A stretch of 6,028 nucleotides of DNA, from the NCBI GenBank assembly GCA_027021085.1, contig JALUVB010000191.1, positions 1-6,028 on the forward strand. Reading direction: 5' to 3'. Both the position numbers and the translations under genes were made by a program. How positions within the stretch are numbered: the first letter of the stretch is position 1; every line of letters begins with the position of its first letter. Origin of the DNA: a bacterium. Its GTDB lineage: Bacteria; CAIJMQ01; JAADFP01. The notes under the pieces are model-generated. The model searched no databases. It had not been told where the DNA came from and was given only the letters and a program-made list of their open reading frames with translations. This document shows, piece by piece, positions 1 through 5,760 of the stretch.

Positions 1-1671
1 CCAAAAGCTCCGGTAACCATAAAAAGCCTGGCCCTGGAAATCCCCTTAAAGGAAGAGGATGCCCTGTACATGAAGGCAAAGGAGATGTTTACTGACCCCA
101 ATTGGGGCTGGTATGCTGCTGCTCTTTATAAAGGGGCAAAAGGAAACGGAAGAGACCTTTTGAAGATTAGTAATAAATGGTTCTTTTCCGCTAAGGGTTG
201 GCTCTGGCCGAACAAATTTATGCACTATGTCTGGGTAGGAGGGGACAAGGTGGGGTTATCGGTAACCTTTAATTCAGATAAGAATTTTTACACTAAAAAG
301 TATGTAGAGATTTTAAACAAGGGCAAGACAAAGGAACTGCGGTTTAATTTTATTGGTTCCCCCTATCCCTTGCAAGAGCCCCTATCCTACACCCTGGCCC
401 TGCATGCCACGCCGGTTAAGCCTTTGCCGAAAGATCCCCGGAAATGGCATTACGGATACGGTGGCGGTGGTGACCTTAGGACTCAACCCGGGAACCAGAA
501 AGACTTTTATGCCGTGACTCCCTATCGCCTTACCCGGGCCATGGGCTGGCCTGGACTAACCCCGGCAGGAAAAAGAAGGGTAGAAGCATTCTGGAAAGAA
601 GGGGTGAGAGTATTCCCGGATTATTACACGAATATGACCACGGTAGAGATGCCGGAGTTCCAGCTTTTTGGCCGGGAATGGGAGACCATTCCCAAAAGAA
701 GATGGCCCTCAGGAAAATTCACCACGGCGGTGGTCTGTTTGAGAGATTCTTATACAAATTTCCTGTTATGGGGTATAAATAAGATGATAGATGAAGGCCT
801 GAGGGGTATATATTTTGATTCATCGGGGGTTCTGGCCTGCATAAATGGATACCACGGTTGTGGGTATATTGACAATACAGGGAGACGCAGGCCTACTATT
901 AATCTATTCGGAGCCAGGGAAGCATATAAGAGGATTTATACCCTCTTCAAATCAAGACACCCGGGTTCCTTTATCATCGCCCATGCAGTTCCGATAAGTC
1001 CCCTGGCCTCTTTTGTAGATGGAACCACGGAAGGTGAGTTCTGGGGTGGTCGTCAGAAGAAATACGGCTATTCTCAGCTCACACCGGACTTTTTCAGGAC
1101 CGGTTTTGCTACGTTCCAGGAGTATGGAGTTCCCTTTGAATTCTATGCATTTTTAGCTTATAACCGGGTGGAGAAAAAATGGAGGGTGCCTGCGGAGGAG
1201 GTTCTTGCCCTAACCCTTATTCATAATATTTATCCTCTGGCAAACCGGGTTGGCGGTGGTTGGGGCATAGGGCTGCAGCAGTTAAAACCGGTATGGGAGA
1301 TAATGGATGATTGGTATACCACTTCTGAATGGATTCCTTACTGGAAAAGTAGCAGTCTGGTACAATCATCTATGGATAATGTAAAAGTGAGTGTATACCT
1401 AAAAAAAGCAGAGAAGAAAGCCTTGCTTCTGGTGGCAAATCTTGCTAATAGCCAGGCAAGAGGAGAATTGAAAATTAATCTTGCAGGTTTTGGCTGGAAA
1501 AAAGAAGGAGTAAGAGTGACAAGAATTAAACGGGCAAAATTCGAAGTAAAAAATGGGATACTCAAAGAAATAAAACCGATGACAAAAGAGGCAATTACTC
1601 TGACAGATTCCGCAATAGAGGTTTCTCTGCCCGGGAAGAGCATACAATTCATCCTGCTGGGAAAAAACTAA
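1..1671 (+). CDS. GH123-like (DUF6067-type) glycosidase-like protein, 5' partial
   Basis: The reading frame is open from base 1 with no stop, so the Met at 70 is internal and the true start lies upstream; 556 residues are visible. Numbering from that Met, residues about 1-115 resemble the beta-sandwich N-terminal region of GH123-like proteins, ending in the characteristic LHATPVKPLPKDPRKWH stretch. Residues about 125-420 look like a TIM-barrel catalytic region, with a strand-end motif GIYFDSSG (Asp250) and a later DGTTEGEF motif (Asp317, Glu321, Glu323), both plausible active-site positions. Residues about 430-533 form a C-terminal beta-rich domain. Known GH123 enzymes are beta-N-acetylgalactosaminidases that use an adjacent Asp-Glu pair; here Asp250 is followed by Ser-Ser, so the substrate should not be assumed. 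Whether the protein is exported cannot be told without the N-terminus. It leads the visible operon, 24 bp before the next gene. The family assignment is moderately sure, the reaction is not. Confidence 0.72.
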   Translation, partial: PKAPVTIKSLALEIPLKEEDALYMKAKEMFTDPNWGWYAAALYKGAKGNGRDLLKISNKWFFSAKGWLWPNKFMHYVWVGGDKVGLSVTFNSDKNFYTKKYVEILNKGKTKELRFNFIGSPYPLQEPLSYTLALHATPVKPLPKDPRKWHYGYGGGGDLRTQPGNQKDFYAVTPYRLTRAMGWPGLTPAGKRRVEAFWKEGVRVFPDYYTNMTTVEMPEFQLFGREWETIPKRRWPSGKFTTAVVCLRDSYTNFLLWGINKMIDEGLRGIYFDSSGVLACINGYHGCGYIDNTGRRRPTINLFGAREAYKRIYTLFKSRHPGSFIIAHAVPISPLASFVDGTTEGEFWGGRQKKYGYSQLTPDFFRTGFATFQEYGVPFEFYAFLAYNRVEKKWRVPAEEVLALTLIHNIYPLANRVGGGWGIGLQQLKPVWEIMDDWYTTSEWIPYWKSSSLVQSSMDNVKVSVYLKKAEKKALLLVANLANSQARGELKINLAGFGWKKEGVRVTRIKRAKFEVKNGILKEIKPMTKEAITLTDSAIEVSLPGKSIQFILLGKN

Positions 1672-1695: not shown

Positions 1696-2313
1696 ATGGG
1701 TAAGATATTAAAAATGACCTGGGGGGTAATGGCTTTGGCGGTTTTGTTTTCTGGGCAGCTGCTGTGGGGTGAGGAGAGAGCAAATCTTCTAAAAAACCCC
1801 GGATTTGAGAAGATTAAACCCTTTACTGTGCCCGAAAGAATGAAAGGAATAATAGAAGCCACGGAAATACCCGAGGGATGGTCAATAGGGTCCGGTAGTT
1901 ATCCCGGAAAACTCACGGTGATATATGATGTAGAGACCTCCCACGGCGGTTCCAGGTATATAAAGTTAGAGAATAAACCTACCCCCGCAAGAAAGACCTA
2001 TGTGCTTTTTGCGGGGGCCGGTCATAACCGGCCGGTACGGGTTACCCCGGGTAAAAAATACTTGATTAAAGTCTGGGTAAAAGGAGAAGGATCTATAGGC
2101 ATAATTGCTTATGGATTTACCGGGCGAACGTTTATCCATGCATTCGGGTCCGGGCGGATGCAGGTAAACAGCCCGGATGAGTGGAAGGAATACAAGTTTG
2201 AGTTTGATACCAAGGAAAGTGATAAAGATATCAATGGCTTACAGCCTGCTTTCAGCATAGGAGGCACCCTGTACCTGGACGATGCCTATATGGGAGTTTT
2301 GCCCGCAGAATAG
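1696..2313 (+). CDS. Small secreted carbohydrate-binding (CBM4/9-like) protein
   Basis: This 205-residue protein starts with a typical signal peptide: basic residues (Lys3, Lys6), a hydrophobic core at about residues 8-23, then a polar segment where cleavage is likely near residues 25-28. There is no Cys anywhere, so it is not a lipoprotein. The mature part opens with NLLKNPGFE, the usual first strand of jelly-roll carbohydrate-binding modules, then has a PEGW segment, an RVTPGKKYLIKVWVKG strand pair and a DEWKEYKFEFD strand, and closes with GTLYLDDAYM, also typical of this fold. No catalytic domain is attached. The start is supported by GGAGGG at 1681-1686, nine bases before ATG. It probably binds glycan outside the cell or in the periplasm and may help the neighbouring enzymes, but the ligand cannot be read from the sequence. 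A structural or non-sugar-binding role for the jelly roll is possible. Confidence 0.75.
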   Translation: MGKILKMTWGVMALAVLFSGQLLWGEERANLLKNPGFEKIKPFTVPERMKGIIEATEIPEGWSIGSGSYPGKLTVIYDVETSHGGSRYIKLENKPTPARKTYVLFAGAGHNRPVRVTPGKKYLIKVWVKGEGSIGIIAYGFTGRTFIHAFGSGRMQVNSPDEWKEYKFEFDTKESDKDINGLQPAFSIGGTLYLDDAYMGVLPAE

Positions 2314-2368: not shown

Positions 2369-4732
2369 ATGGAAAAGAATTTAAGCAGCTTTCTCAGGAA
2401 ACAGGATGTAATAAATAAAAAACCTGCGCAGGAATGGGAGGAGGGGCTTCCTCTGGGCAACGGGGATATGGGGGTAATGGTCTGGGGAGACGGCAATCCT
2501 TTAAAACTAACCATAGACAAGGCCGATGTCTGGGATACCCGCAACCCGGAGTGGGACAGCAGTTTTCGTTTTAACCGGGCCAAAGAATTGCATCAAGCCG
2601 GGAAAAAAGAAGAATTCCTGAAATATATCAAGGCAAAGATTAAATACAATGACATTGCTCCCACTAAATTAGGTGTAGGCAGAATAGAAATCAGGGGAAA
2701 TCACAAGCCGCTTCAGGTGGAGAAAGCGAGGCTTTCCCTTGCTCAGGCGGTAGTCAAAACCAACCTCACAACCGATAATGCCCGGGGCAAACTGGAAGTA
2801 TTTGTCAGCAGAACAAGGCCACTTATCCTGGTGAGATGGCCGGATTCCCTGCAGCTTAAGGCAAAATATAAAAGCTTCTTCCATCTGGTAAGGAGTGGAG
2901 AGCCTAAAAAAAGCATAGGTTATCCGCATATAAAGGCAGACCTGAGCAAGTACGGCTACAGAGAACCTCTCTCCGCTTCCTATAAGGATGCCCACTACAG
3001 CCTGCAGGAAATACCTGACGGAGGAAGGGTAGCAGTAGTCTGGAAGGAGGTTAAAAAAAGAGGTTTCTGTGAGTTAAGGCTATCCATTGCTTACAGTCTC
3101 TCGGGAGAAGATGTGCTGGAAATTGCCTATCAAAATATTGAGGAGTCTTCCTCCCTCTCCTGGCGAAAAATTTTCCGGGAACATGCTGCCTGGTGGAATT
3201 CGTTCTGGGAGGAAAGGTCAATAATTCACCTGCCTGATGCGAAGCTGGAAAATTTATATCATTTAGAGATGTACAAATTCGCTTCCTCTTCCCGGCAGGA
3301 GGGCATACCCATAAGCCTGGTGGGGGTATGGAGCCCGGATGAGTTTATGCCTCCCTGGCAGGGAGATTATCACAACGATATAAATACCGAGATGTCCTAC
3401 TGGCCAGCCTACGCAGGCAATTGCCTTGACCTTGCGGAGCCTTTTAACCGTTACATGATAGAACAGTTAGAGGCAGAGCGGGAGCACAGCACTCAGGTAT
3501 TCGGGTTTGAGTGTGCCAAAGTTCCCTCCAATGGGATGCCTACAGGGAGAATTGGCAGCGCATGCGTCTGTGATATCTGGGTAGGAATCAATGCCTGGCT
3601 GGGACATCATCTCTGGTTATACTGGCTTTACAGCCAGGATAAGGATTTTTTGAAGAAAAAGGCTATGCCCTATTTCCGGGAAAGCGTCAGGTTCTATCTG
3701 GGAATCTTAGAAAAAGACGAGAAGGGATTCTATAATATTCCCTTTAGTTATTCCCCGGAATGGTTCGGAGGACCGGAGAAAGGAGTAGGCCCCACTCTCT
3801 GGAATAACCAGTTTGCCGGTTTTGGGAAAAATCCCTCCTGCGACTTAGCCCTGGTGAGAAACCTCTTCTCCTGGGCAATAGAATCCAGTCAGATTCTCGG
3901 ACAGTATGAAAAAGAACGCGCTCTCTGGCAGGAGGTTCTGGACCACCTTGCCCCCTATCCAGCCTGGAAACCTTATGGCATACTGGTGTTTGAGGATGTC
4001 CCCTATTCCACCAATCATCGTCATTTAAGCCATCTCCTGTGCATTTATCCTCTCGGAGACCTGAACATTGAAGGGACAGAAGAAGAAAGAGAACTTCTGA
4101 GGCAGAGTATAGAGAATCTCATTATACGGGGGACAGGAGAATGGGCAGGCTGGAGTTACAGCCATGCTGCCTGTATAGCTGCCCGGGTAAATATGCCCCA
4201 CTGGGCGGTAAGGTTGTTGCATACTTATCTGGATTATTTTGTAACCAGGACCGGGTTTCACAAGAACGGGGAAGAGGGTATCTATGGGCTTACTCTGCAA
4301 ATCGGCTCTGCTATTACACACGAGGGCGGATTCGGAGCGGCCACAGCCATACAGGAGATGTGTCTTCAGAGCTGGGGAGGAATAATCAGGATTTTCCCGG
4401 CTATCCCGCAGCAATGGAAGGAATTATATTTCCTGGGATTGAGAGCTGAGGGCGCATTTGTGGTAAGTGCCTGGAGGGAGAAAGGAGAAACTGTGGGGGT
4501 GGATATTTTATCAGAAAAAGGGAAAAAGTGTGTGCTGAAGAATCCTTTTGGAGAAAAAAGTTTTTTACTTAGCAATGGCAATCGGGAAGTAAGCTATAAA
4601 TTAAGCGGCAATAAAATAATATTTGCTACCGAAAAAGGAAAAACTTATTCCCTGCGCTGCAAAGGGAAAAGACCGGATAAACCGCTTCTCAGACCAGCCT
4701 CACCAGGAAATACTTTTGGGATAAAGTTATGA
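2369..4732 (+). CDS. GH95-like glycosidase with altered base residues
   Basis: This 787-residue protein follows the GH95 architecture. The N-terminal beta domain opens with EGLPLGNGDMGVMVWGDG (residues about 25-42) and runs to about 260; a linker reaches about 300, an (alpha/alpha)6 barrel runs to about 675, and a beta-rich C-terminus ends the protein. Barrel landmarks are GDYHNDINTEMSYWPA (332-347), SPE (462-464), HRHLSHL (550-556), WAGWSYSHA (592-600) and HEGGFG (651-656). Known GH95 members are inverting alpha-L-fucosidases or alpha-L-galactosidases. Glu464 fits their general acid. Against the base set Asn/Asn/Asp of the Bifidobacterium enzyme, this protein shows Asp337, Asn339 and Glu652. 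There is no signal peptide, so it probably acts in the cytoplasm on imported oligosaccharides. Its stop overlaps the next start (ATGA), implying coupled translation. The family is quite sure; activity on fucose is only one option, and a divergent GH95/GH65-related subfamily with another sugar is equally plausible. Confidence 0.85.
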   Translation: MEKNLSSFLRKQDVINKKPAQEWEEGLPLGNGDMGVMVWGDGNPLKLTIDKADVWDTRNPEWDSSFRFNRAKELHQAGKKEEFLKYIKAKIKYNDIAPTKLGVGRIEIRGNHKPLQVEKARLSLAQAVVKTNLTTDNARGKLEVFVSRTRPLILVRWPDSLQLKAKYKSFFHLVRSGEPKKSIGYPHIKADLSKYGYREPLSASYKDAHYSLQEIPDGGRVAVVWKEVKKRGFCELRLSIAYSLSGEDVLEIAYQNIEESSSLSWRKIFREHAAWWNSFWEERSIIHLPDAKLENLYHLEMYKFASSSRQEGIPISLVGVWSPDEFMPPWQGDYHNDINTEMSYWPAYAGNCLDLAEPFNRYMIEQLEAEREHSTQVFGFECAKVPSNGMPTGRIGSACVCDIWVGINAWLGHHLWLYWLYSQDKDFLKKKAMPYFRESVRFYLGILEKDEKGFYNIPFSYSPEWFGGPEKGVGPTLWNNQFAGFGKNPSCDLALVRNLFSWAIESSQILGQYEKERALWQEVLDHLAPYPAWKPYGILVFEDVPYSTNHRHLSHLLCIYPLGDLNIEGTEEERELLRQSIENLIIRGTGEWAGWSYSHAACIAARVNMPHWAVRLLHTYLDYFVTRTGFHKNGEEGIYGLTLQIGSAITHEGGFGAATAIQEMCLQSWGGIIRIFPAIPQQWKELYFLGLRAEGAFVVSAWREKGETVGVDILSEKGKKCVLKNPFGEKSFLLSNGNREVSYKLSGNKIIFATEKGKTYSLRCKGKRPDKPLLRPASPGNTFGIKL

Positions 4733-5760
4733 AAGCAAAGAAGAGAGCTTTAGCAGTATTTGAGGGGATTAAGTTAGATAGATTTCCCATGTGGTATGGA
4801 GCCGACTCCAAAACCACCTCAAACCTCATGGAACTCCTGGGGATAGAGGAAGAAGAGCAGCTCCTGCGTGCCCTGGGAATTGATTTTAGAACTATAAGGC
4901 CGCGTTACATTGGTCCCCCGCTTGCCCAATACGAAGATGGCAGCGTGGATACTGTGTGGGGAATTCGCAGGGGAGGAGCCTACTATGGGCAGGCTCTTAA
5001 TCATCCCCTTAGTGGGGCAGAATCAGTAAAAGACATAGAAAACTTTCCCTGGCCTGACCCGGCAGAGTGGGAGGTGAGCCATGTAGTAGAGGAAGCCAGG
5101 AGATACCAGGATTTTTGCCTGATAGGTGGTGCTTGGTCGCCTTTCTTCCACGATGTGTCGGAGCTATTCGGTATGGAGGAAATGTTTGTAAAAATGGTCT
5201 TGCAGCCAGGTGTAGTGGAGGCAGCCTGTGAAAAATGCGTGGAATTCTATCAAGACCAGTCAAGGCGAATGTTTGAACTTGCCGGTGATTTGCTGGACAT
5301 ATTTTTCCTAGGTAATGATTTCGGTTCACAGAATGGACTGCTCTGTTCTCCCGATATGTGGAGGCGTTTCTTCGCCCCGGGCATAAAAGCGATAATTGAC
5401 CTGGGACATAAATACGGGTTAAAAGTGGCTTTGCATTCATGTGGTGATATTCACGAAATTTTGCCTGACCTTATAGATATGGGGCTTGATGCCATAAATC
5501 CTATTCAGGTTAGTGCTGCGAACATGGACCCGGTAAAATTAAAGAAAGAATTTGGCAAAGATATTGTTTTCTTCGGGGGTATAGATATTGAGGTTTTACG
5601 CTGTGGTACGGAGGGAGATGTGCGTAATGAAACGCGGCGCATAATTCAGATTCTGGGAGAGGACAACCGCTATATTGTAGCTCCTTCGCATGATTATCTT
5701 TTACCGGAAATACCAGCTGAAAATATTGTGGCTATGTATGAAGAGGCAAAGAAAGTATGA
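4729..5760 (+). CDS. URO-D superfamily protein, probable cobamide methyltransferase type
   Basis: This 343-residue protein is full length for the uroporphyrinogen decarboxylase superfamily, a TIM-barrel family that also includes MtaA/MtbA-type methyltransferases acting on methylcobamides. Its N-terminus (ALAVFEGIKLDRFPMWYG) lacks the RQAGR signature through which true HemE binds porphyrin carboxylates, so heme synthesis is unlikely. LHSCGDI at 235-241 supplies a His236-X-Cys238 pair like the zinc ligands of MtaA-type enzymes. Where those proteins have a third Cys near the C-terminus, this one has APSHDY with His321; Cys292 is another candidate ligand. The C-terminal PEIPAENIVAMYEEAKK is typical of the family. 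The protein is soluble with no signal peptide. No Shine-Dalgarno is seen; the start is set by the ATGA overlap with the GH95-like gene. Methyl transfer from a methylated sugar or glycoside is an inference from context. No corrinoid protein gene is visible here. Confidence 0.8.
   Translation: MKAKKRALAVFEGIKLDRFPMWYGADSKTTSNLMELLGIEEEEQLLRALGIDFRTIRPRYIGPPLAQYEDGSVDTVWGIRRGGAYYGQALNHPLSGAESVKDIENFPWPDPAEWEVSHVVEEARRYQDFCLIGGAWSPFFHDVSELFGMEEMFVKMVLQPGVVEAACEKCVEFYQDQSRRMFELAGDLLDIFFLGNDFGSQNGLLCSPDMWRRFFAPGIKAIIDLGHKYGLKVALHSCGDIHEILPDLIDMGLDAINPIQVSAANMDPVKLKKEFGKDIVFFGGIDIEVLRCGTEGDVRNETRRIIQILGEDNRYIVAPSHDYLLPEIPAENIVAMYEEAKKV

Follow-up and report, generated by a model that had tools for sequence, protein, structure and literature searches.

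A GH95-like glycoside hydrolase with Asp and Glu at two canonical catalytic positions points to a large sister clade of the classical α-L-fucosidases

Introduction

The classical enzymes of glycoside hydrolase family 95 (GH95), α-1,2-L-fucosidases and an α-L-galactosidase, are represented by AfcA (2EAB), FucOB (7ZNZ), XacAfc95 (7KMQ), BACOVA_03438 (4UFC) and BH0842 (2RDY). For AfcA, both residues of an Asn pair, Asn421 and Asn423, were proposed as activators of the attacking water (PMC4491172); in another account, Asn421 positions the acid and not the water (PMC12282258). In FucOB, the residues N385, N387, E541 and D699 were equated with N421, N423, E566 and D766 of AfcA, and each of them, like W655 and H693, is essential or critical; the activity requires the equivalents of AfcA Trp722 and His760 (PMC10063614). 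An Asn base is also at work in GH139, where the first position is Gln and there is no Asp766 (PMC12282258). The catalytic base of the GH65 kojibiose hydrolase FjGH65A is Glu616 (PMC8626586). How GH95 and GH139 enzymes work with Asn instead of a carboxylate base is still debated.

Here, we describe a GH95-like protein encoded on a bacterial contig of 6,028 nucleotides (JALUVB010000191.1 of assembly GCA_027021085.1), the whole of which is referred to as the window. In this protein an Asp and a Glu stand in the columns of Asn421 and Asp766.

Results

Gene neighbourhood

The GH95-like gene is the third of four co-directional, closely spaced genes (Table 1). The 4-base overlap with the following gene, which is similar to URO-D and MtaA-like corrinoid methyltransferases, is also found in a sister genome (URO-D-like gene L045:2179-3201), where a GH42 gene comes next. 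In the genome of the window, ten matches to URO-D and eight to the B12-binding domain were counted, and since URO-D-like matches are that numerous, this neighbour says little about the substrate.

The GH95-like copy of the sister genome is 86% identical to the window protein and has the same residues at the catalytic sites. With a dN/dS of 0.055 between the two copies, the gene is under strong purifying selection. The sister copy lies on a short contig and is split into two frames (L045:3-764 and L045:797-2182) near the barrel motif, which reads NTEMSHWSAY versus NTEMSYWPAY in the window protein; the split could stem from the assembly or reflect a gene that is truly decaying.

Table 1 Features of the window, with the residues of AfcA and FucOB in the corresponding columns
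Feature	Position	Strand	Remark
Glycoside-hydrolase-like gene, GH123_N match (C-terminal part)	1-1671	+	truncated by contig start
Protein with N-terminal signal-like stretch and CBM_4_9 domain	1696-2313	+	55 bases upstream of GH95-like gene
GH95-like glycoside hydrolase ORF	2369-4732	+	787 aa
Barrel motif HNDINTEMSYWPA, with D337 and N339	3371-3409	+	
Asp337 codon GAT	3377-3379	+	column of AfcA Asn421 / FucOB N385
Asn339 codon AAT	3383-3385	+	column of AfcA Asn423, proposed base
Glu464 codon GAA, in SPE	3758-3760	+	column of general acid AfcA Glu566
HRHLSH motif, residues 550-555	4016-4033	+	His552 in column of AfcA His678
Trp595	4151-4153	+	column of stacking Trp, AfcA W722 / FucOB W655
Gly646, 6 residues ahead of Glu652	4304-4306	+	column of AfcA H760 (His in classical enzymes)
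HEGGFG motif, with E652	4319-4336	+	
Glu652 codon GAG	4322-4324	+	column of AfcA Asp766
URO-D/corrinoid-methyltransferase-like (URO-D/MtaA-like) gene	4729-5760	+	overlaps GH95-like gene by 4 bases

Domains and fold

The protein starts with MEKNLSSFLRKQDV and has no obvious signal peptide, unlike several members of its clade. Its Pfam matches lie above the curated cut-offs for the GH95 catalytic domain (198.8 bits, cut-off 27), the C-terminal domain GH95_C (56.5 bits, cut-off 27.6) and GH65N_2, the N-terminal domain of GH95 (53.2 bits, cut-off 27.7); in addition there is a short match of about 40 residues to DUF5703_N. GH95 enzymes were also the top solved relatives in the sequence search. Based on an alignment of 112 sequences, AlphaFold2 gave a model with a pLDDT of 90.2 and a pTM of 0.94; an earlier alignment of seven sequences had modelled the active site poorly. 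The ten best structural matches of the model were all GH95 (Z 33-38), among them 2RDY (Z 38.4), 7KMQ (37.4), 4UFC (35.7), 8ZBV (35.5) and 2EAE (33.6), followed by FjGH65A (Z 31.6) and GH139 (Z 28). The window protein has the three-domain (α/α)6 fold of GH95.

Catalytic residues

HMM alignments to 2RDY, 4UFC, 8ZBV, 7KMQ and 7ZO0, using a profile of the 112 sequences, aligned D337 with the first Asn in N-I-N and E652 with the Asp in IDGNFG, and neither motif contained a gap. The original prediction, made from the sequence alone, had claimed exactly this arrangement with Asn339 kept, and the five solved chains bear it out; both substituted residues stay in the columns of Asn421 and Asp766. In the numbering of the FucOB paper (chain index + 6), D337, N339, E464 and E652 map to N385, N387, E541 and D699, and the chain of the FucOB E541A mutant has Ala in the acid column, as expected. 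The retention of the SPE acid had likewise been foreseen, and the spacings of 125 and 188 residues between the catalytic positions are correct; those given for AfcA, 143 and 200, follow from the published numbering.

Besides N339 and the acid E464, W330, H335, R551 and H552 are retained, His335 corresponding to AfcA His419. The water-activating set Asn421-x-Asn423 plus Asp766 of the classical enzymes is Asp-x-Asn plus Glu in the window protein.

Distribution and phylogeny

When the genome collection was scanned with the single sequence, no match came up; an alignment query recovered relatives. With search patterns that stop before D337 and exclude E652, at least 578 pattern-matched stretches were confirmed to encode a relative. 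The best 80 of these, which are the closest to the query, come mainly from Bacteroidota, Planctomycetota, Acidobacteriota, Hydrogenedentota and Verrucomicrobiota; the counts below accordingly apply to the nearer members of a larger set. Cultured strains with a clade member include Mucilaginibacter sp. OK268 and Arenibacter catalasegens. Nearly all of the 80 carry the motifs H[HN]DLNT[QE] and FTLEGNFA.

In the alignment of the core clade drawn from these 80, Asp stands at position 337 in 76 of 77 members and Glu at position 652 in all 77. In the classical clade, the first-Asn column holds Asn in 24 and Asp in 4 of 28 genomic sequences, and Asp again in the solved 8ZBV, whereas the Asp766 column is Asp throughout (28 of 28 genomic and five solved sequences). 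The column of N339 is invariant in both (28/28 and 77/77). What the two main groups share is therefore N339 with an acid at 652, while position 337 varies; it is also Asn in two clade members, L017 and L075.

A tree built without the key columns separates a clade of 28 rows with the window protein from a clade of 28 rows with 2RDY, 4UFC, 7KMQ, 8ZBV and FucOB, both with 100/100 support. Of the six solved GH95 enzymes this covers all but AfcA, which was not placed, and the window protein lies outside this classical clade of α-L-fucosidases and α-L-galactosidases. A distinct subfamily, as first suggested, gains support from this split. The window protein and its sister copy form a long basal branch of their clade, and the nearest rows are L017, with Asn and Glu, and two copies in a single genome, G322.

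Judged from the aligned sequences, the combination of Asp and Glu is the hallmark of a large and widespread clade, sister to the classical GH95 fucosidases, and not an oddity of a single protein. Chance is not the source of the two residues, since they are kept in the sister copy under purifying selection and in 76/77 and 77/77 core members. Glu652 is a clade-specific swap of acid for acid. Asp337 is a new carboxylate, yet by itself neither unique nor strictly required, because five classical members have Asp and L017 and L075 have Asn. As the mark of a subfamily it holds for nearly the whole core clade, but in view of its recurrence and its losses it cannot serve as a clean marker of new chemistry.

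The two G322 copies (L043:4668-7103 and L043:7171-9492) are adjacent GH95-like genes in which positions 337 and 652 are Asp and position 339 is Tyr. Their base site is further rearranged, with Tyr replacing the otherwise invariant Asn339. A member from Planctomycetota (L107:3887-6244) has Asp and Glu, but in the motifs GDMNVQETFWPA and FTMEANCGAA, and no Trp in the stacking column of the present alignment; the clade varies further. Literature searches for GH95-like subfamilies and for DUF5703 proteins retrieved no paper.

Fucose pocket and substrate

The column of AfcA His760 lies near a gap in the MAFFT alignment, and the residue was therefore read by its ungapped offset from position 652. 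Of the 33 classical or solved sequences, 29 have His in this column; Tyr occupies it in 76 of the 77 core members, and the window protein has Gly. The Trp722 column is Tyr in 74 of 77 core members; the window protein has Trp there (W595). Of the fucose-pocket residues W414, H419, H678, W722 and H760, the window protein keeps four and has Gly for H760, and the core clade in addition has Tyr for W722. As far as the sequences tell, these changes are a stronger sign of an altered substrate than Asp and Glu alone. With the pocket rebuilt at these two columns, plain α-1,2-L-fucose is probably not what the enzyme binds; more likely candidates are another L-sugar or a fucose that carries a substituent.

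No clear L-fucose isomerase, no FucU and no rhamnose isomerase were found in the window's genome, which is incomplete. Its Fucose_iso_C matches are isomerase-like proteins that score below any named L-fucose isomerase. A fucose-isomerase-like gene (L155:484-1899) directly precedes a RuBisCO-like gene (L155:1922-3355) whose score is far under all named RuBisCO or OiaX cut-offs. The genes in the neighbourhood of 28 loci of the clade did not point to any one substrate: sulfatases, SusD, TonB receptors, GH29, GH141, GH123_N, GH20 and NAGLU were each seen one to three times.

Discussion

Mechanism

We favour the view that the window protein, one basal lineage of the large sister clade, is an exo-glycosidase with the GH95 fold that acts inside the cell and with inversion. 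Glu464 would protonate the leaving group, and the attacking water would be held between Asp337 and Asn339. Its proton would most likely be taken by Asp337, a true carboxylate, with Glu652 backing Asn339 in the way known for Asp766 of AfcA. Where Asp stands in for the first Asn, it is expected near the water, since the Asn pair of AfcA was proposed to activate it and the equivalents in FucOB are essential or critical; as Asn421 was also proposed to position the acid, an Asp in its column should sit near water and acid alike. We put the probability of this reading as a whole (Glu464 as acid, Asp337 as probable base, Glu652 behind Asn339 and a sugar other than plain fucose) at about 45%. The initial proposal that Asp337 or Glu652 could act as a carboxylate base is kept for Asp337, the new carboxylate; Glu652 brings in no new carboxylate, as the classical Asp in that place already backs an Asn. 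A different substrate, offered then beside a different base arrangement, gains in likelihood from the changes at Trp722 and His760, which that proposal had not noticed. The chemistry, the base and the substrate are our inference, whereas the fold, the columns, the conservation across the clade and the purifying selection were observed.

Nearly as likely as Asp337 as base is an unchanged relay of Asn339 and Glu652. Asn339 would then be the base or clamp the water, Glu652 would simply replace Asp766, Asp337 would tune or position Glu464, and only the substrate would differ. Such a relay would fit since N339 and an acid at 652 hold in both main groups and position 337 is the variable one. It also agrees with the part of acid positioner given to Asn421, and with GH139, which manages with an Asn base although its first position is Gln and it has no Asp766 (PMC12282258). 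However, at a site whose Asn is proposed to touch the catalytic water, a carboxylate would serve much better as base than an amide, and the near-fixation of Asp in the core clade argues for more than tuning.

That the substitutions are neutral drift in an ordinary α-L-fucosidase or α-L-galactosidase within GH95 is improbable. The full set of GH95 domains, the retained His335 and stacking Trp595, and the Asp at the first Asn of 8ZBV, which was deposited as an α-L-fucosidase, would all suit such an enzyme. Against it stand the deep split from the solved enzymes, the replacement, clade-wide for His760 and in most members for Trp722, of residues that are essential in FucOB, and a genome, albeit incomplete, with no clear L-fucose isomerase or FucU.

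Very little credence is due to a methylated deoxy sugar as substrate, in the manner of GH139 on 2-O-methyl-L-fucose and with the coupled URO-D-like gene handling the methyl group: the overlapping URO-D/MtaA-like gene in both genomes, the DUF5703_N match common to GH139 and the place of GH139 among the nearest folds speak for it, but URO-D-like genes abound in the genome and are absent from the most-matched families near the other clade members (28 loci), the DUF5703_N match is short, and the GH139 profiles score 46-47 bits versus 142-292 for GH95.

With Asp337 as the preferred base, one may go further and regard the clade as a separate GH family or subfamily in which a carboxylate at the Asn421 position replaced Asn catalysis and the substrate is neither fucose nor L-galactose; this we consider possible but, on balance, doubtful. 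In any case, a clade of this size, with one Asn replaced by Asp and the other backed by Glu, provides a natural set of enzymes for comparison on the question of the Asn base. For several hundred proteins or more, from Bacteroidota, Planctomycetota and further phyla, automatic labels such as "α-L-fucosidase" or GH95 may misname the substrate.

Comparison with known systems

FjGH65A (7FE3) shares with the window protein the fold at clan level and the position of the acid. Its base Glu616, in an AET motif, aligns about 6 residues before Glu652, in the His760 column where the window protein has Gly646, and Glu652 was therefore rejected as a base of the GH65 type. The GH139 2-O-methyl-L-fucosidases (BT0984 9HYQ, 9HMB) have in common with it the fold, the acid, the Asn at the second position and the short DUF5703_N similarity. 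They differ in the Gln-Asn pair, in the conserved Asp723/Asn729, with Asn729 for Asp766 (PMC12282258), where the window protein has Asp-Ile-Asn and Glu652, in the structural Z of 28, and in profile scores far below those of GH95.

For 8ZBV from Pontiella sulfatireligans F21, a literature search found no paper. It resembles the window protein in the Asp at the first Asn (NDLNTQMNYW), the second Asn and the SPE acid, but unlike the clade it retains Asp at 766, in an IDG motif, and Trp at 722, and it belongs to the classical clade in the tree. With the classical GH95 enzymes, finally, the window protein shares the three-domain architecture, the fold, the acid Glu, the second Asn, the HRHxSH motif and the W414 and H678 columns. 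It departs from them in Asp for the first Asn, Glu for Asp766 and Gly (Tyr in the clade) for His760, at 22-26% identity in the structural alignment and as a member of their sister clade in the tree.
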